Virus record (IMG/VR): IMGVR_UViG_3300033149_006154
Location: 1-47,589 of that record
Direction: 5' to 3' (one strand)
Length of the DNA: 47,589 nt
DNA from: a virus
The translations under genes and the position numbers were made by a program. Numbering within the stretch: position 1 is the stretch's first letter; the number at the start of each line of letters is the position of its first letter. Shown here one piece after another: positions 1 to 47,589 of the stretch. The notes below the pieces were generated by a model. That model saw only the letters and a list, made by a program, of their open reading frames with translations, was not told where the DNA came from and did not search any database.

Positions 1-28
1 AGGCAGAAGAAACACGATGCCCGCATTG
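1..28. repeat. Terminal direct repeat, left copy (circle junction)
   Basis: The first 28 bases are identical to the last 28 bases of the window (47562-47589). An exact end overlap of this size is what an assembler leaves when it closes a circular or circularly permuted genome. The repeat contains the start codon of the ASCH gene at position 17, so genes run continuously through the junction. Confidence 0.9.
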
Positions 29-388
29 AACTTTCAGGGACGGTTCGCCCCACTCGTGGAATCGGGCGAGAAGACGCAGACCATCCGCCCGCCACGGAAG
101 CGGCCTATCTGCGCAGGGGATACGCTGCACCTCTACACCGGGATGCGAACGCGGGCTTGCCGGAAGCTGGGGGAGGGGCTCTGCTATATGGTCAGCCCAA
201 TAACCGTAACGGCAGACTGCTGTTATCTGTACGGATTCCTCGTGAGTAATGTTCGGGCCGAGCGAATCGCTCAGCGTGACGGCTTCGGTTCATGGCGCGA
301 ACTGGCCGCGTGGTTCAAGGCGCAATACGGCCTGCCTTTCAATGGAGTCGTGATTCGGTGGGAGATGCGGAATGCTATACGCGACTAG
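17..388 (+). CDS. ASCH-domain protein
   Basis: This 123-residue protein carries an ASCH-type fold signature: a GEKTQTIRP stretch near residues 18-26, a DTLHLYTGMRT strand near 35-45, and a C-terminal WF-x7-LPF-x-GVVIRW segment. ASCH proteins are small beta-barrel proteins of the PUA-like superfamily proposed to bind RNA; they are common in phages and their exact role is rarely known. The ATG at 17 is preceded by a good AAGGAGG in the circularised sequence. Across the junction the frame is also open upstream, back to a GTG at 47476 in a methyltransferase remnant, so a longer fused product is possible. The next gene starts within its 3' end (372). Confidence 0.75.
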   Translation: MPALNFQGRFAPLVESGEKTQTIRPPRKRPICAGDTLHLYTGMRTRACRKLGEGLCYMVSPITVTADCCYLYGFLVSNVRAERIAQRDGFGSWRELAAWFKAQYGLPFNGVVIRWEMRNAIRD

Positions 389-617
389 AGACGGAAATGG
401 CGAACGAGTTCTCTGGACCGGCAAGCCGGAACTTCAGCTGGACGGCACGTGGGACCTTCCCGCCACACGCAACGGAACGTTCATTTCTGAAACGGATGCC
501 GATATTGTCCGCGCCATCTTCCCCAAGGGCCTCAGGCCCGGTGACTGCGTAAAAGTCGGGCGATTGTCGGTAGTGCGGCGCATAGAGAAGGAGAAGCGAA
601 ATGTTATGGGCGAGTAG
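372..617 (+). CDS. Small protein, paralogue of the next gene
   Basis: This is an 81-residue protein of unknown function. It overlaps the end of the ASCH gene and has a GGGAG ribosome-binding site about seven bases before the ATG. It begins MLYATRDGNG and contains AIFPKGLRPGDCVKVGRL. The following gene begins MLWASRDSDG and contains AIFPRGVKPGQCVKVGRL, so the two are a tandem duplicate. The only clear features are a Trp-rich N-terminal half and the conserved PG(D/Q)CVKVGRL segment. No membrane segment or catalytic motif is visible. Confidence 0.7.
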   Translation: MLYATRDGNGERVLWTGKPELQLDGTWDLPATRNGTFISETDADIVRAIFPKGLRPGDCVKVGRLSVVRRIEKEKRNVMGE

Positions 618-2419: not shown

Positions 2420-2583
2420 GGGAGAACATCGTCGAACTCTTGGTGGACGTTGGTGACTTCCTTTGGCGGGAGGCGATGGAAGGCGAGAACGCGACCGCGC
2501 GCGAACTGGCAAGAAGGCGCACAAAGAATTACCGCTCTTCGAAAGGAGAAGATGAAAATGGCATCCGAAAAGACTTACATTGA
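2416..2583 (+). CDS. Small protein coupled to the methyltransferase
   Basis: A 55-residue protein whose ATG overlaps the methyltransferase stop as ATGA, an arrangement used throughout this genome. It starts MRENIVELLVDVGDFLWREA and then becomes charged and basic. Its end overlaps the start of the next gene in another frame. The amphipathic N-terminus and coupled start support a real gene, but there is no recognisable domain. Confidence 0.45.
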   Translation: MRENIVELLVDVGDFLWREAMEGENATARELARRRTKNYRSSKGEDENGIRKDLH

Positions 2584-2953
2584 ACCCGCCGACGAGGAAG
2601 GCGAGGAGCCCAAATACGAGTCGCCAATCAAGAAGCCTCTTTGCGACAAGCCTGATTCTCTCATCCGAGAGATGGTCTACCTCGCAGAGGCTCAGGAGCA
2701 TTGGCGGCGTATAGTGCGCTGGTCCGAGGGCGTAATGACCTATGGTGCGTCGAAGGTGTGCCACTTCGCGCGAAAGGCCCTCCAGGTCTGCGACACGCGA
2801 CTGTATGAAGCGAGCAGAGCCCTCGCCCGCCAGGGCTTCAGGCCCTGTCACAAATGCGGGGGAAGTGGTGTCTTGTCCTACGCTGACGCCACGCTCGCCG
2901 CTTGCCGCTGCTACGAGTGTGGTGGCAAAGGCTACGTGAAGAAGGAAGATTGA
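2558..2953 (+). CDS. Helical protein with DnaJ-type zinc finger
   Basis: A 131-residue protein. I chose the ATG at 2558 because AAGGAG sits nine bases upstream; the ATG at 2552 would be too close. An acidic start is followed by a helical module (AEAQEHWRRIVRWSEG, then KVCHFARKALQVCDTRL). It ends with two CxxCxGxG knuckles, CHKCGGSG and CYECGGKG, of the kind that bind zinc in DnaJ. The same module occurs at 47085-47474, and its helical half recurs at 3062-3523. No J-domain is present, so this is not a full chaperone. The function is unknown. Confidence 0.75.
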   Translation: MASEKTYIEPADEEGEEPKYESPIKKPLCDKPDSLIREMVYLAEAQEHWRRIVRWSEGVMTYGASKVCHFARKALQVCDTRLYEASRALARQGFRPCHKCGGSGVLSYADATLAACRCYECGGKGYVKKED

Positions 2954-3974: not shown

Positions 3975-4418
3975 TCAGAAGCCCTCGCATTCCCACCCTC
4001 TGGCCAATTGCCAGGCCGCCGTGTGCATCAGGAGGCGGTGTGCCAGTTTGTCGGCATACTGCTGGAGCGCCTGCAAGATGGGATTGTCGTGGTTCTCCAG
4101 TAGTTCGTATGCCTGGAAGAGCCAGCAGTCGAGGGCCTTGAGCAAGTTCAACGGCTTCACCCGGACCCGCTTCATCTTGGGGGCTTTCTTCACGTCGGCG
4201 TAACCGTATGCTTCCTCAACTGCGCGGACGTTCATCTCGAACAGGGCTTGCAGAAGCCACTGCTCGATTTCGGCCCTCTCGTCCTCTGATGCCTCTCGCC
4301 AGCCGGGCAAGAGTATCTCGGGCGGCCAGGGGGCGCTCTTGCCCCCGTCGGAGAGGGCCTGGACCAAGCCGCTGACAATCATCCGAAACGTTGATTCCTT
4401 GCAGATGTAGACACCCAT
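3975..4418 (-). CDS. Small protein, paralogue of 4422-4862
   Basis: A 147-residue protein at the promoter-distal end of the leftward unit. It and its upstream neighbour are related: both start with M(G/S)xxxCxExTFxxIVxGL, have LF(E/D)(M/I)NVxAV in the middle and LKALDC(W/F) followed by a YA(D)xLAH block near the end. Related sequences are widespread in phages, but no activity is established that I can name. No membrane segment is visible. The convergent rightward gene ends 11 bases away. Confidence 0.7.
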   Translation of the reverse strand: MGVYICKESTFRMIVSGLVQALSDGGKSAPWPPEILLPGWREASEDERAEIEQWLLQALFEMNVRAVEEAYGYADVKKAPKMKRVRVKPLNLLKALDCWLFQAYELLENHDNPILQALQQYADKLAHRLLMHTAAWQLARGWECEGF

Positions 4419-4421
4419 ATC

Positions 4422-4862
4422 TCACTCCCATCCTGGCGTCGCGTCCCACTGCGGCAACCGGTGAACGATGCTGTGCGCGAGTTCGTCGGCGTACCGCTCC
4501 AGCTCGGCAACGAGGGCCTGATTCGTCCACTTGGTGCTCTCGCACGCCTGGTAGATGAAGCAATCCAGAGCCTTCAGGAATATCATCGGGGTTATCGGTA
4601 CCTTCTTTACCTTCGGCCGGGCGCTCGGAATCATATCCTTTGCGTCGTCGCCGTAGCGCTCCCGAACCGCCGCCACATTGATGTCGAACAGGGTGTTTAT
4701 CAGATAATAGGCGGCCTCGCGCTTTTGTGCCTCGGTCATTTCGTTCCAGTAATCAGCAGGCAGGGGCGGCGGAGGGTACTTACCGGACGTGTCCTGACGC
4801 GCCTCTATCAGGCCGGTCACAATCCGCTGGAACGTAATCTCACTACAGACGAACGCGCTCAT
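4422..4862 (-). CDS. Small protein, paralogue of 3975-4418
   Basis: A 146-residue protein, the second member of the pair with 3975-4418. Shared signatures are the start MSAFVCSEITFQRIVTGL, the block LFDINVAAVRERYG, and FLKALDCFIYQACE. The ATG overlaps the serine recombinase stop as ATGA, so translation is probably coupled. The Tyr/Asn/Arg-rich middle and the DCxxYQ(A/S)CE motif are typical of a common but uncharacterised phage family. Confidence 0.75.
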   Translation of the reverse strand: MSAFVCSEITFQRIVTGLIEARQDTSGKYPPPPLPADYWNEMTEAQKREAAYYLINTLFDINVAAVRERYGDDAKDMIPSARPKVKKVPITPMIFLKALDCFIYQACESTKWTNQALVAELERYADELAHSIVHRLPQWDATPGWE

Positions 4863-5560
4863 TCTCCACTCCTTTCTGCGTGTCGTTTAAGAATTCGATG
4901 GACAGTAGCGGGGTACCACCGCTGGCGTCCGCGGAAGGGGACGCCGTTCTCTTCCATGTACCGCGCGATTTTCCGACAGCCCATGCCGCCGCGCCTCAGC
5001 ATAATCATGCGCTGGAGCGCCATCTGCTCCTCGGGGTTCTCGATGAGCATCGCCGGGTCGTCCGGGTCGCGCTGGAACCCAAAAGGCGGCCGGTCGCTCA
5101 TGCGCCGCTTCTGGGCCTGGTACCGAAGCATCGCCATCTTGGTTCGTTGTGCGATGATTCGCCGCTCGTACTCCGCCAGGGCGGCCAAGATTTGCCGTGT
5201 CATGCGGGCAGCCGGGTCGTCATCTTCACCCACGTGATGTTGAACGGCTTCCAACCTGGCCCGTTTCTGCTTTATCTGGCGGATAATCGTCTCACACAGC
5301 AGGACGTTCCTCGCCAGGCGGTCCAGGTGCGACACGATGAGCACGCGCCCCGGCCGCAGGTCATCAACTGCGGCCCACAGGCCCGGGCGCTCTGCATCAT
5401 CGCCTGACAACGCCTCATCGGTGTAGGTGGCGACGACCTTGTATCCCTTTTGGCGTGCGTACTGCTTACAGGCCGCAATCTGGTTGGCGATACTCTGTGA
5501 ATTCGCGGCATCCGGGCGGTCACTGAACCGCGCGTAGATTATCGCCTCGGTTTTCCGCAT
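4859..5560 (-). CDS. Serine recombinase (resolvase/invertase family)
   Basis: A 233-residue serine recombinase. The catalytic core starts IIYARFS with the nucleophile Ser13 and Arg11, followed by QIAACKQYARQKGY, a DEALSG loop, and SHLDRLARN with the expected arginines. The second part (RPPFGFQRD through GCRKIARYMEENGVPF and a final VHRILKR) is a short recombinase-type DNA-binding region; the zinc ribbon and coiled coil of large integrases are missing. The ATG at 5560 fits the family start. It could integrate the genome, resolve dimers or invert a segment. No att site can be assigned from one sequence. Confidence 0.9.
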   Translation of the reverse strand: MRKTEAIIYARFSDRPDAANSQSIANQIAACKQYARQKGYKVVATYTDEALSGDDAERPGLWAAVDDLRPGRVLIVSHLDRLARNVLLCETIIRQIKQKRARLEAVQHHVGEDDDPAARMTRQILAALAEYERRIIAQRTKMAMLRYQAQKRRMSDRPPFGFQRDPDDPAMLIENPEEQMALQRMIMLRRGGMGCRKIARYMEENGVPFRGRQRWYPATVHRILKRHAERSGE

Positions 5561-5643
5561 CTTCCTTATCGCCTCGAAGAACAGAACCAGATTACCAGCA
5601 CGCAGACAAGCCAGGCCAGAGGGCCGACGACGTAATCCTGCAT

Positions 5644-6117
5644 CTACCATCTCCACTGGCAGTTCTCGATTTCCTTGGCTTTCTTATAGGTCTCGCCGTA
5701 GGTGCCCTTCCAGGCGTTGAGAACCGCTTCCAGGTGCACCAGGATTCTCATTTGCTGGGCGCGGGGCAGCCGCCGCAATTCGTCTTTGGCATGGCGGTAC
5801 GGCACCGACCAGTGGAGCAAGGCGGCCAGGTAGAAGGCCCGCTTTCCGCGCCGCCCGCTTGTGCTGGGCCAGTTTGCAGCGGCGTTCGCCGCCGAAGCGT
5901 ACATGGCACCGTAATCGCCTGCCAGGATGCTGACCAACACTCCCCGCAACGAGGTGGGGCCTTTGCGAAGGGCCGCCGCAAAGGCAGCCCTTCGTTCCTT
6001 CCGCTTTTCAAGCGGGGCCTGATATGCTTCCCGCTCTCGCTTCCTGATGTCCACGGTCACGCGCGCCAGGTCAATCGGCGATACCGGCAGGCGCTTTCCC
6101 TTCCATTTCCTTCTCAT
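5644..6117 (-). CDS. Basic helical protein of unknown function
   Basis: A 157-residue, strongly basic and probably helical protein that begins MRRKWKGKRLPVSPIDLARV. It overlaps the upstream DUF932-like gene by four bases, which suggests coupled translation. The region RRGKRAFYLAALLHWSVPYRHAKDELRRLP has conserved-looking aromatic residues but matches no domain I recognise. An 83-base stretch without an assigned gene separates it from the recombinase. The charge would suit nucleic acid binding, as inference only. Confidence 0.65.
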   Translation of the reverse strand: MRRKWKGKRLPVSPIDLARVTVDIRKREREAYQAPLEKRKERRAAFAAALRKGPTSLRGVLVSILAGDYGAMYASAANAAANWPSTSGRRGKRAFYLAALLHWSVPYRHAKDELRRLPRAQQMRILVHLEAVLNAWKGTYGETYKKAKEIENCQWRW

Positions 6118-6890
6118 ACTGTCGCTCCCAGTTCTGCGAGTTTCCGGGTCGCTCCCGTAATCGCCTGGAATTGGCGACGGGGCGCAACGGTCTTGGCGAC
6201 AAAGGTGACAGCGTTCAGCACGTTCCAGGCGGTGGTGTCGCCGTTCCCACGGAATTCCTCGAAGCGCGGTTCGTGCAATTCGTCGAGCGCCTTCCCGAGA
6301 TGGGTCGCCGTGATAGCGCCCTCTCGGTACAGGTTCGCCAGAACGTCATGGGCCTGTTCGTAGGACAGCCGGGTCGCGCGGAGCCTGGTAACGGTCCCGG
6401 CGATACCCCGAGCGCTCGCCAGCCACCGGTCCATGGCCTCGTTGAGGGCCACATCCAGATCGAGGCCGGTGGTATGGCGGCGGCGGAGCACGAAACTACC
6501 GGTGATCACGCCGTTCTCGCAAATAAACACTCGCGCGCCGACGGAGAGCGTCACCGCGAACCGCGAGTCGTTTGAATTGCGGACCCCGATGCTGTACCCC
6601 ATGCCGTCGGATTTCAGGTCGGGCAACAGCAGCCTCTGCTGGACCTCGGGCGGTATCTCCAGGTCCAGCCCGCCATAGAGCACGTGGCCATTCGCACTCA
6701 CGGCCCAGGTCTCGCGTCTGACCTCGATGTTTCGCCGCTGCACGGCTTCGATAAGACGGTTCGCCAGGACGTGGTGATGCAGCGGTTGCCACCGGGTTCC
6801 CTTCGTGTAACGCCCCGGCTCAGGTGGCTCGAAGCGGGGCAGTTCCTCGCGTCCGACAAAGCGTCCACGACTGGCAGAGATGGAAAGCAT
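6114..6890 (-). CDS. DUF932-like phage/plasmid protein
   Basis: A 258-residue protein with the hallmarks of the DUF932 family found on phages and plasmids: an aromatic/Pro start (YTKGTRWQPLHHHVL), a central IGVRNSNDSRFAVTLSVGARVFICENGV strand-rich block, a long helical segment, and a terminal TTAWNVLNAVTFVAK. The family has no settled biochemical role. The start at 6890 follows GAGGAGTGGAG. It lies upstream of a basic protein and the serine recombinase in the same unit. Confidence 0.75.
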   Translation of the reverse strand: MLSISASRGRFVGREELPRFEPPEPGRYTKGTRWQPLHHHVLANRLIEAVQRRNIEVRRETWAVSANGHVLYGGLDLEIPPEVQQRLLLPDLKSDGMGYSIGVRNSNDSRFAVTLSVGARVFICENGVITGSFVLRRRHTTGLDLDVALNEAMDRWLASARGIAGTVTRLRATRLSYEQAHDVLANLYREGAITATHLGKALDELHEPRFEEFRGNGDTTAWNVLNAVTFVAKTVAPRRQFQAITGATRKLAELGATV

Positions 6891-6965
6891 CACTCCACTC
6901 CTCACGCGGGTCCCTGAAAAGCCCTCACCCGCCCCGCGCGAACGGGCAAGGGCATCTCTCTTCAC

Positions 6966-8569: not shown

Positions 8570-8624
8570 CGCTCATCTCCGGCCCCGAGGGGCAAGTCGC
8601 CCCCCGAAGCAGCCTCTTGGAAAC

Positions 8625-9011
8625 TTATTCGTTCGGATTCTCACGCGAATCCATGCTATCCCGAACCTTCTGCATAAGCAGCATCTCGTTCAGCCGCTCC
8701 ATGAGGCGCTTGCAGGCCGGGCATATCTTTCCGCCATGCCCATCGGGCGCGAGGTCGCCGAGCACGTCTCCCTTCTCGCAGTAACTGCACTGGGGGGTGA
8801 CCTCAAGGCCAACGTTTTCCGCCACCCGGCGGCAGAGCCGGTGGAAGGTGGTTATCGGAACGTCCCAGCCCAGTTCGCACTCACTCGGCGGGTCATCGGT
8901 AAGCGTCGCCGTGTATGCGCACCAGTAGACCTTAGCCCCAGGCACGTTCCGTTGCCAGATACGGAACGGCCCGACCGTCAGCAGGTGCTTCCACTTCTTT
9001 TCCTCGCTCAT
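8625..9011 (-). CDS. Zinc-ribbon paralogue 4 of a tandem set
   Basis: A 128-residue protein, last in transcription order of four tandem paralogues. Each starts with a short charged segment and a VGPFxxWxR(x) motif; here it is TVGPFRIWQR. Each then has an LGWD-like motif (ELGWDVPITTFHRLC), a CxxC knuckle (CSYC) and a second CxxC (CPAC), and ends in an amphipathic helix (LMERLNEMLL). The four cysteines fit a zinc ribbon. The start overlaps the previous stop as ATGA. The function is unknown. Confidence 0.75.
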   Translation of the reverse strand: MSEEKKWKHLLTVGPFRIWQRNVPGAKVYWCAYTATLTDDPPSECELGWDVPITTFHRLCRRVAENVGLEVTPQCSYCEKGDVLGDLAPDGHGGKICPACKRLMERLNEMLLMQKVRDSMDSRENPNE

Positions 9012-9361
9012 GTTTGACTCCCTTCCTCAGCATCCAGCATTTCGTGAAGGCGCTGCATCAGCCCCTCACACTCAGCACACACCACCCTGTACCCTTTGTA
9101 TTCGGTGGACGTGCGCGGATTGGCCTCGCCGCAAAAGACGCATATCTCCGGCGCTGGGCTTAGGTTCCGCGCTCGCGCAACGGCCTTGCAGAGCCTCAGA
9201 AGCGTTGGCCCGCTGACATCCAGGCCAAGGTCCCGTTCATGCGGGCGCTTCTCGCCGAGTGTAACGGTGTGTGTGCTGGCGAACCGCTGACCGGCACCTT
9301 CCCGCCGCCAGAGCGTGAACGGCCCGACTGAATACAGGCGAACCCATGAACCCTCGCTCAT
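9008..9361 (-). CDS. Zinc-ribbon paralogue 3 of a tandem set
   Basis: A 117-residue protein, third of the four tandem paralogues. It contains SVGPFTLWRR near residues 11-20, DLGLDVSGPTLLRLC in the middle, and zinc-ribbon knuckles CVFC and CAEC, then the terminal helix LMQRLHEML. Both ends overlap neighbours by four bases. Compared with its siblings the Trp of the LGW motif is replaced by Leu. The function is unknown. Confidence 0.75.
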   Translation of the reverse strand: MSEGSWVRLYSVGPFTLWRREGAGQRFASTHTVTLGEKRPHERDLGLDVSGPTLLRLCKAVARARNLSPAPEICVFCGEANPRTSTEYKGYRVVCAECEGLMQRLHEMLDAEEGSQT

Positions 9362-9738
9362 CTTTGCTCTCCCCCTCGGTCGCGGACCTCTTCCAGCCGC
9401 GCGAGCATGTAGTCACAGGACGGGCATATCACCCGCTCGCGGTCATACGTGGCGAATTCGCCCTTGCGGGCAGTTCGCCCGCAGAAGCAGCACTTGTCAA
9501 TGCGGGACTGGTCGCCAGGCCCATACGCAACCGCTCGGCAAAGCCGCTCCAGAAGCCCGCCAGAGATAGCCCAGCCGAGGCAAGAATCCTTCGGCGCTGG
9601 GTCGCCGATTCTGGTCACGAAGTAGGTCTCGGGACTCACGAGGACGCACTCGGCCATCACCTGCGCCTTCACCTTCCGCTCCCAGACCTGGAACGGCCCC
9701 ACTTGGAACGCCTTCCGCCACTGGTGCGGGCTTTTCAT
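9358..9738 (-). CDS. Zinc-ribbon paralogue 2 of a tandem set
   Basis: A 126-residue protein, second of the four tandem paralogues. It shows QVGPFQVWERK near the N-terminus, CLGWAISGGLLERLCRAV centrally, zinc-ribbon knuckles CCFCGR and CPSC, and a terminal helix (YMLARLEEVRD). I chose the ATG at 9738 because it overlaps the previous stop as ATGA and aligns with the other paralogues' starts. An extra 15-20 residue segment between the VGPF and LGW motifs sets it apart. Confidence 0.75.
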   Translation of the reverse strand: MKSPHQWRKAFQVGPFQVWERKVKAQVMAECVLVSPETYFVTRIGDPAPKDSCLGWAISGGLLERLCRAVAYGPGDQSRIDKCCFCGRTARKGEFATYDRERVICPSCDYMLARLEEVRDRGGEQR

Positions 9739-10109
9739 TCCAATTCTCCCTCTACTTTCTCGTTCAGAAGGTCTAACAGCCGCTTCAGGATGCAGTAGCA
9801 GTCTGGGCAGGCATGTTGACTCCCGTACAGCGGGAAACTTCCCTTCGGCGCGTGTCTGCCGCAGAACGAACAGACATCCAGGGGCTGTTGCTTGGTCCAC
9901 AAGGGAGCAACCGCATCGAGGAGGCGCAAAAGCACCCGTTCGTCAACTTTCCAGCCCAGGTCGAAGTCGCGCGGCCCTTTGTCCGCCAGAAGCGTAACAG
10001 CATACGCTTCTTCGTGCGGTGGTTCCTCGCTGTACTTGGGGTTTACGGTCCGCTTCCATATCTGGAACGGCCCAATGGGTCGGACTTTTTCCCACTGATA
10101 CAGACTCAT
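9735..10109 (-). CDS. Zinc-ribbon paralogue 1 of a tandem set
   Basis: A 124-residue protein, first in transcription order of the four tandem paralogues. It has PIGPFQIWKRT near residues 11-21, DLGWKVDERVLLRLLDAV, zinc knuckles CSFCGR and CPDC, and the terminal helix ILKRLLDLLNEK. Its start overlaps the upstream gene by four bases. The CxFCGR form shared with copy 2 suggests these two copies are closest. The function is unknown. Confidence 0.75.
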   Translation of the reverse strand: MSLYQWEKVRPIGPFQIWKRTVNPKYSEEPPHEEAYAVTLLADKGPRDFDLGWKVDERVLLRLLDAVAPLWTKQQPLDVCSFCGRHAPKGSFPLYGSQHACPDCYCILKRLLDLLNEKVEGELE

Positions 10110-10441
10110 TCTTCCGCTCCCTCTTCGAGAACCGTCAGAGTCTCGGTCGCCGGGTCGAATTCTCCGACGCCGCCTTCGGGGATATCCGCGAATCTCGATG
10201 CGTCAGGTTCGCCCTCTGGGGTGAATCCCGCTATCACGCTCGGCATGATGTCGTCCGGGGTCCAGAAAATCCCTTTACCGACCGCGTTCCCGACTGTTCC
10301 GAAGGCGTGGGCGAACGCTCGCAGGCCGCAACCGGAGGACACGTGCGCGATTCGTCCGCTTTCGAACGCAATCTCCGCCAGACCGGAGCCGTAGGTGCTT
10401 CTGATGCCCTTTATCGTATCGTGGTAGACCTTGAAAGCCAT
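10106..10441 (-). CDS. Small protein of unknown function
   Basis: A 111-residue protein beginning MAFKVYHDTIKGIRSTYGSGLAEIAF. The block IRSTYGSGLAEIAFESG followed by SGCGLRAFAHAFG looks like a widespread small phage protein, but I cannot name its role. The C-terminus is acidic. It is coupled by a four-base overlap to the tandem zinc-ribbon set downstream. Confidence 0.65.
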   Translation of the reverse strand: MAFKVYHDTIKGIRSTYGSGLAEIAFESGRIAHVSSGCGLRAFAHAFGTVGNAVGKGIFWTPDDIMPSVIAGFTPEGEPDASRFADIPEGGVGEFDPATETLTVLEEGAEE

Positions 10442-12691: not shown

Positions 12692-14471
12692 AAACCTCGC
12701 ATACCGGCAGCGGTGCATCGAGGCCGCCGAGGCCGACGCCCGGGTGCGCGATGCGCTGCTGACGGCCTGCCGCCAGGACCTCCTGTTCTGGCTCAACACC
12801 TTCGCGTGGATTCTCGAACCCCTCACCGGCGACGTAAAGCCCTTCATAACATGGCCATTCCAGGACAAGGTCCTCCTCCAGCTCCAAAGCGCGCTGGGAA
12901 AAAAGGACGTTTGTATCACGAAGAGCCGCGGGGTGGGCCTGTCCTGGATGATTCTCTCGCTGTTCGCCTGGAAGTGGCTGTTTTACCCGTTCTGCCACTT
13001 CCTGCTGGTCAGCCGGAACGAGCGGATGGTCTACCACAAGGGTGACCCCGATACCCTGTTCGAGAAGATTCGGTTCCTCATCGAGGGGGAAGCCGGCATG
13101 GCGGGCCTGCCGACCTGGATGAGGCCCGACTTCGACATGCTCGAACTCCGGCTGAAGAACGAACGGAACGGTTCAACCATAACCGGCGCTTCGACGACCG
13201 GCAACGTGGGCCGCGGCGGCAGACGCCTCGCGGCCCTGTTCGACGAGTTTGCGGCATTCGGGCGGGATGATGGTTATAGAGCCCTCTTCGCCACCCAGGC
13301 GGTCACCCACTGCCGAATTTTCAACTCCACTCCGATGGGAACAGGGAACGCCTTCTACGACCAAGCCCACAATCCGAACATCCTCCAACTGCGGGTGTCC
13401 TGGCAAGACCGCCCGGATTGGAGTCGAGGGCTCTATACCTCCAAGAACGGCCAGCTCGTCATCCTCGATAAGACCTACCCGTTCAAGTCCGACTATCCGT
13501 TCATCCTGGACGGCCGAGTAAGAAGCCCCTGGTACGACAACGAGGAGGCCCGGGCGCAGAACCGGCAGATTATCAGCCAGGAACTGGACATGGACTTCCT
13601 CGGGTCGGACTTCACGTTCTTCGACGGCAACATGCTCAATCGGGTCGAGGCCAAGACGAGGCCGCCCTTCCTTATCGGCGACCTACACTGCGACCCCGAA
13701 ACCGGCGAACCGAGGAAGTTCGTCAAGCACATGAAGGGGTGCTTGAGGCTCTGGACGAACCTCGACCCGGTCACCCAACAGCCGCCCCACGACCGCCTCT
13801 ACGCCATCGGCGTGGACGTGTCGGCCGGTACGGGGGCGTCCAACTCCTGTATCAGCGTCGGAGACGCCAGACAGCGCGCGAAGGTGGCGTCGTTCGTCAG
13901 CCCCAACATCCTGCCCTACAATCTGGCCGTCCTCTGCTGCGCTCTCGCGCGCTGGTTCGCTGGTCCCAACGGGCCGGAGCCGATGATTATCGCCGAGTGC
14001 TCCGGCGGTCACAACCGCGTCTTCCTGAAAACCCTTCGAGAGCTCGGTTATGGGAACATCTATCGGCGTCGGAGCGAGGAGCCCGGCGTCACTGGTAAGG
14101 CTGAGCCGCGGCTTGGTTGGTTGCCCACCAAGGACTCCCGCCGGGAGCTTCTGGAACAGTACGGACTGGCGCTCAACGTGGGCGACCTGGTCAACTACGA
14201 CCGACACGCCATCGCCGAATGTCGGGAATACATCTTCTTCCCTGACGGGTCCGTTGCCCATGCACGGAGCAAGAACGTCCTCGACCCATCAGGAGCCAAG
14301 CAGAACCATGGGGACCGCGTCATCGCTGATGCCCTCATGTGGAAGGTTCTCAAAGAGGAACTTCAAACGCCGGTCCCGGCCGAAGAAGGCATTCCGCCCG
14401 GCTCGTTTGCCGAGCGGATGTTGAACCGCCGTAAGGAAGAGGCCAGAAAGAGGTCATTGTGGGAGGATTGA
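12588..14471 (+). CDS. terL: Terminase large subunit
   Basis: A 627-residue packaging motor. The ATPase part has a Walker A-like KSRGVGLSW at residues 112-120 and a Walker B, ALFDEFAAF, with Asp219 and Glu220; STPMGTG further on fits the coupling motif. The nuclease part has GVDVSAGTG with Asp410 and ends with VIADALMW, giving the second acidic residue Asp581. It cuts concatemers and pumps DNA into proheads. The GTG at 12588 overlaps the previous gene by 104 bases; a later start is possible because the first 40 residues look poorly conserved. The circular ends suit headful packaging. Confidence 0.93.
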   Translation: MTRKCSILSDALQLKSQTKNQPTSLYSLVPKDKDKNLAYRQRCIEAAEADARVRDALLTACRQDLLFWLNTFAWILEPLTGDVKPFITWPFQDKVLLQLQSALGKKDVCITKSRGVGLSWMILSLFAWKWLFYPFCHFLLVSRNERMVYHKGDPDTLFEKIRFLIEGEAGMAGLPTWMRPDFDMLELRLKNERNGSTITGASTTGNVGRGGRRLAALFDEFAAFGRDDGYRALFATQAVTHCRIFNSTPMGTGNAFYDQAHNPNILQLRVSWQDRPDWSRGLYTSKNGQLVILDKTYPFKSDYPFILDGRVRSPWYDNEEARAQNRQIISQELDMDFLGSDFTFFDGNMLNRVEAKTRPPFLIGDLHCDPETGEPRKFVKHMKGCLRLWTNLDPVTQQPPHDRLYAIGVDVSAGTGASNSCISVGDARQRAKVASFVSPNILPYNLAVLCCALARWFAGPNGPEPMIIAECSGGHNRVFLKTLRELGYGNIYRRRSEEPGVTGKAEPRLGWLPTKDSRRELLEQYGLALNVGDLVNYDRHAIAECREYIFFPDGSVAHARSKNVLDPSGAKQNHGDRVIADALMWKVLKEELQTPVPAEEGIPPGSFAERMLNRRKEEARKRSLWED

Positions 14472-14473
14472 AG

Positions 14474-14953
14474 ATGCGCAGAGTCTCCGTGACGGTCGCT
14501 CTGGTGTGCCTGCTCGGGGCAAGCTTCGTTGCCGGCTGCGCCTGGCTGAGCAACCTCGAACAGGCCGGAGAGGACCTGAAGGTGGTCGCCGAGAGCATGA
14601 AGGCGGCCGGCGAGAAGATGGAGGCCGTGGCCGAGGGCGCTCCGCCCGGTGCCAAGGAGCCGCTCATCATCGGCGGCTGGGGCCTGCGCTCGCTGGCGGC
14701 CATCATCGGCGCTATCGGCGCAGCCTGGATTGCTTACAGCGAGGCCAGAAAGAAGAAACTCTCCAAACAGGTGGCTGAAGCCGAACAGCTGGCGCTGAAT
14801 AATTACCGAGCCGCTAAATCCCTCACCGACGCCCTCGAATTACTGAAGGTTAAGCTGCCCGAGGATGTCGTGAAGGAGATGCTGGACGTGCTCACGGCCA
14901 TTCAGAAGGCCCGCAACACCCAGGAAACCGTCAACGCCATCCGGAAGGAATAG
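14474..14953 (+). CDS. Predicted lipoprotein with one membrane helix
   Basis: A 159-residue protein. GGGAGG lies eight bases before the ATG at 14474. The N-terminus is a signal peptide with a VAGC lipobox, placing the lipidated Cys at residue 22. An amphipathic Ala/Glu/Lys helix follows, then a membrane segment at about 64-88, then a long coiled-coil-like helix to the end. Between terminase and portal genes this is unusual. It could be an envelope protein for lysis or superinfection exclusion. The membrane helix is not at the C-terminus, so it does not look like a classic unimolecular spanin. Confidence 0.65.
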   Translation: MRRVSVTVALVCLLGASFVAGCAWLSNLEQAGEDLKVVAESMKAAGEKMEAVAEGAPPGAKEPLIIGGWGLRSLAAIIGAIGAAWIAYSEARKKKLSKQVAEAEQLALNNYRAAKSLTDALELLKVKLPEDVVKEMLDVLTAIQKARNTQETVNAIRKE

Positions 14954-15159: not shown

Positions 15160-16932
15160 GTGAATCCAAACAACCCGCGACAACTGGTGCGGCTCACAGA
15201 AGCCATCCGGCAGAGCAACCGGCGCTTGCGGCCGTTTCGAGAGAACTACTTCCAGGCCGTCGAGCATTACGTCGGGAGCCGGTTCGGTGAGGTCGGTATG
15301 CGGCGGACCTACGCGAACTTCATCGAGCTGGCCGTCAACATCTATCGGCGGCATCTGGCCGCCCGAAACCCCCACGCGACGATTACCACGCCGAACATCG
15401 CCCTGAAACCGACCGCTTACGACTTCCAGACGGCGGTCAACGAGCGCATCAAGGAGATTAACCTCGTCGAGAACCTCCGAATGGGCGTCACCTACGCCAT
15501 GTTCAGCCCGCTCGGCCTGATGAAAGTGGGGCTGGAGCGGGCCGGATACATCGAGGCGATGGGGTTCCTCCACGACGTGGCTCAGCCGTTCGCCGACCCG
15601 GTCTTGTTCGACGACTGGGTCATGGACATGACCGCCACCTCGATGGAAGCCGTGCAGTTCTGCGGCAACCGTTACCGCCTGCCCATTGATGTGGTCAAGG
15701 AAGAGCCCACTTTCAACAAGACCGCGCGCGGCAAAGTGACCGGCACGGACACGGACAACGAAGGCCCTGACGACGAGTATCACGTCAAGAACATCGCCAG
15801 GGGGCTGGAATCCTACAGCGACGAGTACCAGGACCATGTCACCCTGTGGGATATCTGGCTGCCGGCGGAACGGCTCGTGGTGACCCTTGCATCGGACGAC
15901 AGCGGCGAGTTTCAGGATATACCTCCGCTCCGCATTGTCGAATGGGAAGGCCCGGATGATGGCCCTTATCACCTCCTCCGGTTCCACGAAGTACCCGGCT
16001 CTCCCCTGGGCCTTCCCCCTGTTGCTCTCTGGTACGACATGCACATCCTGGCGAACAACCTGTTCAGGAAGATGGGGCACCAGGCTGAGCGCGAGAAGGA
16101 CATCCTGCTGGTTCGCGGCGCGGCCAAGCAAGACGCCCAGAGAGTGCTCGAAGCGTCCGACGGTGACGCGATTCACGTTGAATTCGCCGACGACATGAAG
16201 GAGCAGAAATTCGGGGGCGTTGACCCGGCCACCCTCGCGTTCTTCATACAGATGAAGAACCTCTTCACATACATGGCCGGCAACCTCGATGCGCTCGGCG
16301 GGCTCTCGCCGCAGGCCGAAACCCTCGGGCAGGACCAGATGCTCCGAGCGTCGGCCTCGCAGCGGCTTGCCGACATGCAGGACCAGGTCATTACCTGGAC
16401 CCGCGGCATCGTCCACGCCATCGCCTGGTACATCTGGCAGGACCCGCTGATTCGTGTCCGGTACGAGCGGAAAATCGAGGGCACGGACATCGTCGTGCCG
16501 GGCGAATTCAGCTCGGAAACCAAAAAGGGAGACTTCAGCGACTTCAAGATTGACGTGCAGCCCTTCAGTATGCGGCACGAAGACCCGACCGTGCGGCTGA
16601 ACCTCATCCGCAGCATTTGGCATGAGGACATTCTCGGGGCCATTCAGCTCCTTACCGAACAGGGCGGGGCTCCGAACATCAAGGAGTATCTCAAGCTCGT
16701 GGCCGAGTACGCCAATCTGCCCGAGCTTCAGTACCTCGTGAACTTTGACGTGCCGCGGCCGAACGAGATGCCGCAACCGGCCGGCCCACAGCAACCGGCC
16801 GGTGGGAAGAGAATTTATGAGCGGGTCAGCAGGCCCGGGGGGACGCCGGCCGGCCGCGAGAACGCTCTTGTGAATCTCCTGTTGGGCGCGCAATTACAAC
16901 AGGGGCAGGCGCGCCAGCTTGCAGAGGAGTAG
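15160..16932 (+). CDS. Portal protein
   Basis: A 590-residue protein starting at GTG 15160 after AGAAGGA. Size, position after terminase and before scaffold and capsid genes, and features support a portal. The N-terminus is helical and Arg-rich (AIRQSNRRLRPFRENYFQAV); the centre is strand-rich with DDWVMDMTATSMEAVQF; later there is a long helical region (RASASQRLADMQDQVITWTRG); and the end is Pro/Gln-rich. The dodecameric ring of such proteins forms the DNA entry channel and tail attachment site. No single motif is diagnostic, so context carries most of the weight. Confidence 0.8.
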   Translation: MNPNNPRQLVRLTEAIRQSNRRLRPFRENYFQAVEHYVGSRFGEVGMRRTYANFIELAVNIYRRHLAARNPHATITTPNIALKPTAYDFQTAVNERIKEINLVENLRMGVTYAMFSPLGLMKVGLERAGYIEAMGFLHDVAQPFADPVLFDDWVMDMTATSMEAVQFCGNRYRLPIDVVKEEPTFNKTARGKVTGTDTDNEGPDDEYHVKNIARGLESYSDEYQDHVTLWDIWLPAERLVVTLASDDSGEFQDIPPLRIVEWEGPDDGPYHLLRFHEVPGSPLGLPPVALWYDMHILANNLFRKMGHQAEREKDILLVRGAAKQDAQRVLEASDGDAIHVEFADDMKEQKFGGVDPATLAFFIQMKNLFTYMAGNLDALGGLSPQAETLGQDQMLRASASQRLADMQDQVITWTRGIVHAIAWYIWQDPLIRVRYERKIEGTDIVVPGEFSSETKKGDFSDFKIDVQPFSMRHEDPTVRLNLIRSIWHEDILGAIQLLTEQGGAPNIKEYLKLVAEYANLPELQYLVNFDVPRPNEMPQPAGPQQPAGGKRIYERVSRPGGTPAGRENALVNLLLGAQLQQGQARQLAEE

Positions 16933-19695: not shown

Positions 19696-20469
19696 ATGCC
19701 TACCGGCATCCGAATGTACATGGGTGAGCCGACGGGCAATACCGGCCCCAGCCCGCTCATCTGGGCGGACTGCCCCGTCCTCGAACTGATTGAAGACCCC
19801 TCCAAGGGGTACTACTACTTCGAGGACTTCGTTGGCCCGCTCAACCCGACGGACGACGATGGCTACGCCATCACGACCACCACGTCGGGCGAGCTCAGGA
19901 AAGCGGACTACGCTGGCGGCGCGATGGTCGTGGACAGCGCTGGCCACGCCAGTGCCGACGACGGCATCGAGGCCCAGCTGGCCGGTGAGTGCTGGAAGCC
20001 CGCCGCGAACAAGACCCTCTGGTTCGAGGCGCGAGTGAAGTTCTCGGACGTTGCCACAACGCCCGACCAGTTCTTCATCGGCCTCGCAACCACCGACACG
20101 TCTCTGTTCGCCGGCGGCGAGCTCGACGAGTCGAACAACAGCCTCCTCGGGTTCTACACGGACGCGAACTCCACGGCCGGTGACATCGAGTTCATCAGCT
20201 GCAAGGCGGGTTCGGCCGAGATTGACACCGATGGAGGTGGCGGCGACGCCGAAGACGACACCTGGTACAAGTTGGGCTTCAAGGTCTACACCGAGGAAGG
20301 CCAGCTGAAGGTGGACTACTTCGTTGACGGCGAGCTCGTCGGGACCATCACGGATACCGACGACATTCCCGTCACGGAGATGGCGCTCAGCTTCGTCGCC
20401 AAGTGCGAGCAGACCAGCGCCGACGCCGAAATGACGGTGGACTGGGTGCGTATCGCCCAGCTGAGGTAA
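19696..20469 (+). CDS. Lectin-fold (jelly-roll) virion protein
   Basis: A 257-residue, strand-rich protein with KTLWFEARVKFSD near the middle and MTVDWVRIAQLR at the end. The same frame (LWFEARVKFS, then VDWVKVVQLR) recurs in the C-terminal half of 22270-23298, so the two share a concanavalin-like/LamG-type module. It follows the capsid gene, so a capsid decoration or fibre role is likely. AGGAGGG precedes the ATG. The module probably binds carbohydrate or other surfaces (inference). Confidence 0.7.
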   Translation: MPTGIRMYMGEPTGNTGPSPLIWADCPVLELIEDPSKGYYYFEDFVGPLNPTDDDGYAITTTTSGELRKADYAGGAMVVDSAGHASADDGIEAQLAGECWKPAANKTLWFEARVKFSDVATTPDQFFIGLATTDTSLFAGGELDESNNSLLGFYTDANSTAGDIEFISCKAGSAEIDTDGGGGDAEDDTWYKLGFKVYTEEGQLKVDYFVDGELVGTITDTDDIPVTEMALSFVAKCEQTSADAEMTVDWVRIAQLR

Positions 20470-22163: not shown

Positions 22164-22269
22164 AACGAGACACTCTTCGTCGTTTGTTGGTAAGCAGGAC
22201 TAGCTTCGTTACGGTGCCGGACGGTGCGCCCATCCCGTCTTGGGCTCCAAAGCGCAGAAGGAGAAAACC

Positions 22270-23298
22270 ATGTTGTACCGAGTGAGATGGCTGCTCCAGC
22301 GCCTCAGCGAAATGAGGGATTTGCGCCTGGGGCATGACGCAGACTTTACCGTCGAATGGGACGACACAAACGGTATCCTGAAGCTTGTTCCGAAGGCTGA
22401 TGATACCGGTCTCATTCAGCTCGGAACGGGCTCTAAGGATGCCGACTTCAAGGTCTTCCTGGGCTCGACGAGCAAGTACGTGTTGTACGACGTTGGCAAC
22501 GGCCGCGTTCAGTTCGAGGGAGTCGGTGCTCTGCTCGGCGATAACGATGCCCTCGTCTTCGGTGACGGCTCGGACCATCGCTACCGGTGGAACGGGTCGT
22601 ACTTCGAGGCCGGGCCAGCCTCGGGCCTGTGGGCCGGTGTGCCCGCGGCCATCCCGTCGCAGAAGGGACTCATCTACCATGAGTTCTTCGACGACTTCCT
22701 GAAGTTCACGGCGACGGATTGGGACATCGTGACCGTCGAGGCTGGCAGCGGTAATGCTTCGGAAGCCGTCGGCGATGCGGTGGGCGGCGTTCTGGTGCTG
22801 ACCAACGACGACGCCGACGACGACTTCGACAGCATCACCTACAAGACGGAGAGCTTCAAGCTGGCCGAAGGCAAGAAACTGTGGTTCGAGGCGCGGGTGA
22901 AGTTCTCCGAGGCCACCAACGCCGACTGGATTGTGGGCCTGATTGCCCACGAGGACCTCAGCGCCGTGGCCGACAACAAGCCCGCTGACGGTGTCGTCTT
23001 CCACAAAGAAGACGGTGACACCCATTTGGACTTCTCTCACGCCTCCGGCGGGAACAATGACGACAGCAACAGCATAGCGACGGCTGCGGCCTCGTATGTG
23101 CGCCTCGGCTTCTACTTCGACGGCGGAGCAAGCGGTTCGGCGACCATCACGCCCTATGTGGACGGCGTGGCGAAGACCGGTCTCACAAGCCTGGCGTTCA
23201 GCACGGCTGAACTGGCCCCCTACATCGCCATTCGGAACGGCGATGCAAACGCCAGAAACGTCGAGGTGGACTGGGTGAAAGTGGTGCAACTGCGCTAA
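22270..23298 (+). CDS. Virion protein with C-terminal lectin-fold module
   Basis: A 342-residue protein; AAGGAG lies seven bases before the ATG at 22270. The N-terminal part (to about residue 135) is strand-rich with repeats of the kind FKVFLGSTSKYVLYDVGNG and ALVFGDGSDHRYRW. The C-terminal part contains KKLWFEARVKFSEA and ends VDWVKVVQLR, matching the gene at 19696-20469. The fibre-like front plus lectin-fold back suggest a fibre or decoration protein exposed on the particle. Confidence 0.7.
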   Translation: MLYRVRWLLQRLSEMRDLRLGHDADFTVEWDDTNGILKLVPKADDTGLIQLGTGSKDADFKVFLGSTSKYVLYDVGNGRVQFEGVGALLGDNDALVFGDGSDHRYRWNGSYFEAGPASGLWAGVPAAIPSQKGLIYHEFFDDFLKFTATDWDIVTVEAGSGNASEAVGDAVGGVLVLTNDDADDDFDSITYKTESFKLAEGKKLWFEARVKFSEATNADWIVGLIAHEDLSAVADNKPADGVVFHKEDGDTHLDFSHASGGNNDDSNSIATAAASYVRLGFYFDGGASGSATITPYVDGVAKTGLTSLAFSTAELAPYIAIRNGDANARNVEVDWVKVVQLR

Positions 23299-47474: not shown

Positions 47475-47475
47475 G

Positions 47476-47589
47476 GTGCCACGAACGCATGTTGACCTGT
47501 TCACCGGCTTGGGCGGCTTCAGTCTGGCCGCTCGCGGCGCGGCTGATTGCAGGAATGAAGGAGGCAGAAGAAACACGATGCCCGCATTG
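47476..47589 (+). pseudogene. C5-cytosine methyltransferase N-terminal remnant, in frame with the ASCH gene
   Basis: From GTG 47476 the frame reads HVDLFTGLGGFSLAA, which is the conserved motif I of C5-cytosine methyltransferases, normally the first 20 residues of the enzyme. After about 25 residues the family pattern stops and the frame continues, in register, across the circle junction into the ASCH gene. The PCQ catalytic motif and everything after it are missing. GAGG lies seven bases before the GTG. This is either a deletion remnant or a join artefact at the assembly ends. Confidence 0.6.
47562..47589. repeat. Terminal direct repeat, right copy
   Basis: The last 28 bases repeat positions 1-28 exactly and contain the ATG of the ASCH gene. 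See the left copy for interpretation. Confidence 0.9.

Follow-up and report, generated by a model that had tools for sequence, protein, structure and literature searches.

Four neighbouring genes of a phage genome record, designated P1 to P4, are, as judged from their sequences, true paralogues, that is, old tandem duplicates of one orphan phage gene, and the family that they form looks undescribed. Each encodes a small protein with a predicted N-terminal βββα domain and a C-terminal C4 treble clef, both modelled on P1, and from the genomic context a host-interaction or counter-defence function is plausible.

Genes and genomic context

The window (the whole stretch of DNA that was analysed; 47,589 bases) is the entire IMG/VR virus record IMGVR_UViG_3300033149_006154. 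Because a direct terminal repeat of 28 bases was found at its ends, it is probably a complete phage genome. The terminase and structural genes run rightward from about 12 kb, and P1 to P4 lie on the opposite strand, in a leftward block of short genes with a polycistronic layout (Table 1). This block is accessory, since eight records with a related terminase share only its recombinase, and it is probably an early operon, the "early" part being deduced from orientation only. A promoter scan gave four hits against 2.2 expected, which is near chance.

All four genes are open and intact; inactivating frameshifts in most copies, which the initial annotation had named as evidence against its reading, were looked for and found in 0/4. 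Neighbouring copies overlap by 4 bases each. These overlaps, which had been pointed out as linking the four genes, are present but ordinary, because they are repeated throughout the leftward operon (10106/10109, 8045/8048, 6114/6117 and 4859/4862), and they signify only that it is tightly packed. A purine-rich Shine-Dalgarno (SD)-like stretch was found at each start, within the 3' end of the gene before it (GAGGGAG, AGAGGGAG, GAGGGGGAG and GGAAGGGAG). As for P2, an in-frame upstream GTG at 9900, within P1, is unlikely to be the start. Codon usage in all four genes is in keeping with that of the genome, if only weakly in P3 (positive scores of 0.02-0.18, P3 lowest), whereas the antisense ORFs scored below zero (-0.07 to -0.28). 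The pI ranges from 5.9 to 8.8 across the four proteins; the N-terminal domains of P2 and P3 are basic (pI 9.3 and 9.8, respectively), and those of P1 and P4, which are acidic as whole proteins, are near neutral. In P3 and P4, the loop between β2 and β3 is shorter than that of P2 by about 7-8 residues.

Several other features of the window were recorded. The serine recombinase has only 265 aa, with the resolvase domain and the first half of the Recombinase domain; it is shorter than the large serine integrases and is perhaps truncated or invertase-like. At 47475-47589 and 1-28, a short stretch (HVDLFTGLGGFSLAARG) resembles motif I of cytosine-C5 methyltransferase and ends just ahead of the 28-base terminal repeat; it may be a gene remnant or an assembly junction. 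The ORF at 17-388(+), which resembles an ASCH-type phage protein (GEKTQTIRPPRK...LHLYTGMRT), matched phrog_8581 (E 3.8e-10) and no Pfam family at E 0.01.

Table 1. Coordinates of the paralogues, their predicted domains and the surrounding genes in the window
Feature	Position	Strand	Basis or remark
P1, first paralogue, 124 aa	10109-9735	-	ORF and translation; SD-like GAGGGAG; AlphaFold pLDDT 82
P2, second paralogue, 126 aa, ATG at 9738	9738-9358	-	ORF, tblastn, SD-like
P3, third paralogue, 117 aa, LGL replaces LGW	9361-9008	-	ORF, tblastn, SD-like
P4, fourth paralogue, 128 aa	9011-8625	-	ORF, tblastn, SD-like
Predicted N-terminal βββα domain of P1, residues 1-76	9882..10109	-	AlphaFold, folded alone
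Counterparts of this domain in the other copies	9502-9738, 9152-9361, 8793-9011	-	
Predicted C-terminal C4 treble clef of P1 (C80, C83, C101, C104)	9738..9881	-	Alignment, AlphaFold, hhalign
Leftward block of short genes, contains P1-P4	3975..11266	-	Genes mostly without an assigned function
Gene directly upstream of P1, 111 aa, non-paralogue	10106..10441	-	Overlaps P1 by 4 bases
Gene downstream of P4, 174 aa	8045..8569	-	Starts 55 bases past P4; without family match
DUF932 protein, in leftward block	6114-6965	-	
Serine recombinase, in leftward block	4859-5656	-	

Paralogy and selection

A tblastn search of the whole record with P2 recovered the other three copies (E 1e-22, 3.5e-15 and 6.8e-14) and nothing else. 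The shuffle z-scores among the four proteins were 18-37, with both halves of the proteins contributing, and a three-part motif pattern built from them had exactly four matches in the window (expected 0); a profile search of the window found no fifth copy. The repeated duplication of a small protein proposed in the initial annotation is thus borne out. Pairwise identity is 30-39%. It is highest between neighbours (39% for P1-P2, 36% for P3-P4 and 34% for the remaining neighbour pair) and 30-32% between non-neighbours (30% for P1-P4), and this drop with gene distance is consistent with serial tandem duplication. Twenty columns are invariant (in P1 numbering, W6, G13, P14, F15, W18, R20, T39, P46, L51, G52, R62, L63, V67, A68, C80, C83, C101, C104, R110 and L111). 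Because 20 columns are invariant while identity is only 30-39%, every copy was retained under constraint as the remaining positions changed. As to the motifs that had been ascribed to all four proteins, the two CxxC knuckles occur in each copy; the VGPFxxWxR start holds for P2, P3 and P4, but P1 has IGPF, and the LGW centre holds for P1, P2 and P4, but not for P3. The Glu/Gly-rich C-terminal tails probably reflect in part the embedded SD sequence and were therefore not taken as homology.

Between copies, the NG86 method gave dS of 0.9-2.7 or undefined, dN of 0.64-0.90 and, where defined, dN/dS of 0.29-0.88. The synonymous sites are saturated and the comparison thus has no power to detect positive selection, so that past positive selection is neither supported nor excluded by dN/dS. 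The diversifying selection that had been suggested for these genes is accordingly not supported, dN/dS being below 1 wherever computable. Charge divergence and the change in loop length fit a functional separation of the copies.

Three further pairs of small paralogues, two of them adjacent, were seen in the window: 3975-4418(-)/4422-4862(-) with 38%, 372-617(+)/601-831(+) with 39% and 2450-2953(+)/47085-47474(+) with 32% identity. Duplicated accessory genes seem abundant in this phage when it is set beside the eight related-terminase records, each of which has no more than a few pairs at the protein level once DNA repeat arrays are left aside. In the structural region, the ORFs 19696-20469(+) and 22240-23298(+) are weakly similar to each other (E 2.6e-7; 28% over 253 aa) and may be tail or decoration paralogues.

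Predicted structure

AlphaFold2 was run on the four-row alignment of P1 to P4. The resulting model of P1 (mean pLDDT 82) has strands at residues 4-12, 15-22 and 36-40 and a helix at 57-74, followed by a cysteine knuckle, a hairpin and the terminal helix that the initial annotation had described (102-123). The N-terminal domain folded alone gave pLDDT 86 and pTM 0.74; VGPFxxWxR maps to the β1-β2 hairpin, and LGW runs into the first helix. Foldseek returned no match at E < 0.001 for the whole model or for the N-terminal domain, and in the VIA fold comparison Z was below 5 throughout and below 4 for all matches of the N-terminal domain, low Z alone being no proof of a new fold. The top rows for this domain, namely the methane monooxygenase inhibitory subunit (Z 3.8) and PEIP, an enolase inhibitor of phage origin (Z 3.4), were rejected, as the scores were too weak.

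For the C-terminal part, the model predicts a C4 treble clef, in which a knuckle and a hairpin are followed by a second knuckle on a helix, and P1 to P4 presumably bind zinc. The knuckles are separated by 17-18 residues in 4/4 copies, and in the P1 model the second (C101, C104) lies at the start of helix 102-123. The earlier assignment to zinc ribbons was therefore replaced, since a classical ribbon has both CxxC on β-hairpins and no helix with the second knuckle. In structure this part is similar to treble clefs of various kinds, with Csm1 scoring best (Z 4.4, 42 residues), ZAD at 4.2 and the zinc-binding domain (ZBD) of ClpX at 3.5. The hhalign probability was 95% for the ClpX ZBD (over 35 columns) and 90% for the Csm1 zinc finger; the negative control, a zinc-knuckle neighbour at 2450-2953 in the same genome, gave 0.4%. 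The likeness of the zinc half to the ClpX ZBD is weak, and so, to about the same degree, is its likeness to the zinc finger of Cas10/Csm1; any C4 treble clef would be expected to show this. Because shared C4 spacing can yield such scores, P1 to P4 were not filed as relatives of the ClpX domain.

Search for relatives

No described family in Pfam or NCBIfam matches P1 to P4, the best match in PHROGs (E 0.085) was not significant, and the PADLOC anti-phage defence HMMs gave no match at E 1 for any copy, in agreement with the view of the initial annotation that no described family has this layout; a match to a well-described family had been named there as counter-evidence. No anti-defence or takeover protein was matched, and no description of such a protein family was found in the literature. 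In IMG/VR, profile and single-protein pattern scans gave chance matches only, as did three composite motif patterns, verified ORF by ORF. One scan of GTDB gave a Bacteroidales clpX as its sole match; tblastn against INPHARED with P1 to P4 gave nothing at E < 1, and a search of PLSDB with P2 gave nothing. Note that the pattern scans depend on exact short patterns and may therefore overlook distant relatives.

In IMG/VR, 190 relatives of the terminase were found. Of these, 28 of the longer records were searched for the P1-P4 family, with no match, and eight of the 28 were read in large part, at least 40 kb each. These eight have in common with the window the terminase and the gene upstream of it, together with several structural genes. 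Apparent tandem paralogues in two related phages (G008 and G012) were rejected, being ORFs read through DNA repeat arrays. Two arrays were also recorded. IMGVR_UViG_3300037506_000199, a phage contig with a related terminase, has an 18-copy CRISPR-like array at 8621-9856, in which the repeat of about 35 nt reads GTTCAATGCCTGCATAATGGCTTTGTGATTATGAC and the copies are mostly spaced at 64-75 nt. IMGVR_UViG_3300044577_000130 has an unusual array with a period of about 35 nt in two blocks around one ORF (13996-14844 and 15884-16589), in which about 30 repeats consist of GTGCAGCCA, about 8 variable bases, GTGATAACCA or GTTTTAAACA and about 7 variable bases; the unit is too short for CRISPR.

Possible function

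We tentatively regard P1 to P4 as host-interaction (takeover or counter-defence) proteins with a conserved scaffold and copy-specific partners, probably encoded in an early accessory operon. The zinc module would serve for structure or for protein docking, and the N-terminal domain with its variable loops would bind a protein of the host or of a rival element. Each copy may have specialised on a partner of its own, be it a different protein or a variant, and the four together would make up a small takeover or counter-defence kit. The site among short, mostly unassigned genes on the strand opposite to the terminase makes this plausible, as does the fact that all four copies are intact, carry SD-like sequences and show coding bias. 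Absence from all related-terminase records searched is typical of fast-turnover accessory genes, and the spread of pI and the loop differences, unlike what simple dosage copies would show, fit specialisation. Counted against this reading were the near-chance promoter scan, dN/dS without a sign of positive selection, and the lack of an anti-defence or takeover match.

A three-stranded sheet and a helix with a zinc module are a common arrangement in DNA-binding proteins. P1 to P4 might accordingly be nucleic-acid-binding regulators: the βββα sheet, stabilised by the treble clef, would touch DNA or RNA, and the four copies would recognise different sites or assemble into hetero-oligomers to control transcription of the phage or the host. 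The basic N-terminal domains of P2 and P3 and the conserved R20 and R62 agree with this, but P1 and P4 lack such charge, no DNA-binding fold was matched (all Z < 4), and the Pfam DNA-binding families gave nothing for the N-terminal domains even at E 10; we consider it somewhat unlikely. It is distinctly unlikely that the family, joining a βββα domain without known structural relative to a ClpX-like treble clef, is a modular adaptor scaffold whose four versions each recruit or block a different host protein.

The C-terminal module might instead mimic the zinc-binding domain of ClpX; by docking on or capping the ClpX of the host or the adaptors of ClpX, it would shield or redirect proteins of both phage and host. 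Pfam zf-C4_ClpX is the top weak match for P1 (E 0.044; 0.0023 in the record alone), PDB 2ds7 is the top match for the family profile (E 0.046), and the GTDB match and the hhalign probability point the same way. However, P1 scores only 14 bits against a cut-off of 27, P2 to P4 have no match, and the similarity consists mostly of the cysteines and the FCG and IC motifs. Because Csm1 scores nearly as well in hhalign and better in structure (Z 4.4 against 3.5), the likeness may be a generic treble-clef resemblance, and we give a direct action on ClpX a slim chance. Equally improbable is simple dosage, in which the copies do one job, were retained for expression level and drifted apart: tandem order, a common gene block and the same fold expected in 4/4 would suit it, but the divergence in identity, pI and loop length exceeds that of recent dosage copies, and redundancy of four genes would seldom be retained so long in a 47-kb genome.

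Tandem small accessory paralogues are of a familiar kind in phages, and the data do not carry the claim of an arms race; the findings so far overturn none of the known ideas. Where small diverged phage proteins stand in tandem runs, the search for host-takeover and counter-defence factors is productive, and here one operon offers four natural variants of one undescribed scaffold, with which partners could be compared directly across copies.

Comparison with known systems

With the ClpX ZBD (PF06689; PDB 2ds7, 2ds5 and 1ovx), P1 to P4 share C-x2-C-x17/18-C-x2-C with FCG after the first knuckle and, in the predicted P1 model, the second knuckle at the helix start, so that treble-clef topology is combined with C-x2-C-x~18-C-x2-C. 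They differ in that P1, the only copy with a match, stays below the Pfam cut-off at 14.1 bits, in that the proteins have no AAA+ domain and end no more than about 30 residues after the last cysteine, and in that the module follows an unrelated βββα domain at the C-terminus, whereas it is N-terminal in ClpX. In ClpX the domain is a constitutive dimer and binds adaptors as well as substrates. The zinc finger of Cas10/Csm1 has the same C4 treble-clef arrangement and the best structural Z, but it is one small module of a large nuclease that has nothing else in common with P1 to P4. The Lar restriction alleviation protein (PF14354) and the DksA-like phage zinc fingers (phrog_54) are likewise small phage zinc proteins. 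Both matched P3 weakly (Lar in P3 only, E 0.12, 13.0 bits against a gathering cut-off of 28.6; phrog_54, E 0.11), and these matches of 13-14 bits cover the zinc region only and are at chance level for the libraries. To our knowledge, the host takeover module of SPO1 is not a set of tandem zinc paralogues; the likeness is a functional analogy only, in that a gene cluster encodes proteins acting on host machinery, and no sequence similarity to P1 to P4 is claimed. That module encodes growth-attenuating proteins, and its Gp53 is an adaptor-like protein for ClpC (PMC6873191). By analogy, the precedent of Gp53 and ClpC indicates only that Clp targets occur.
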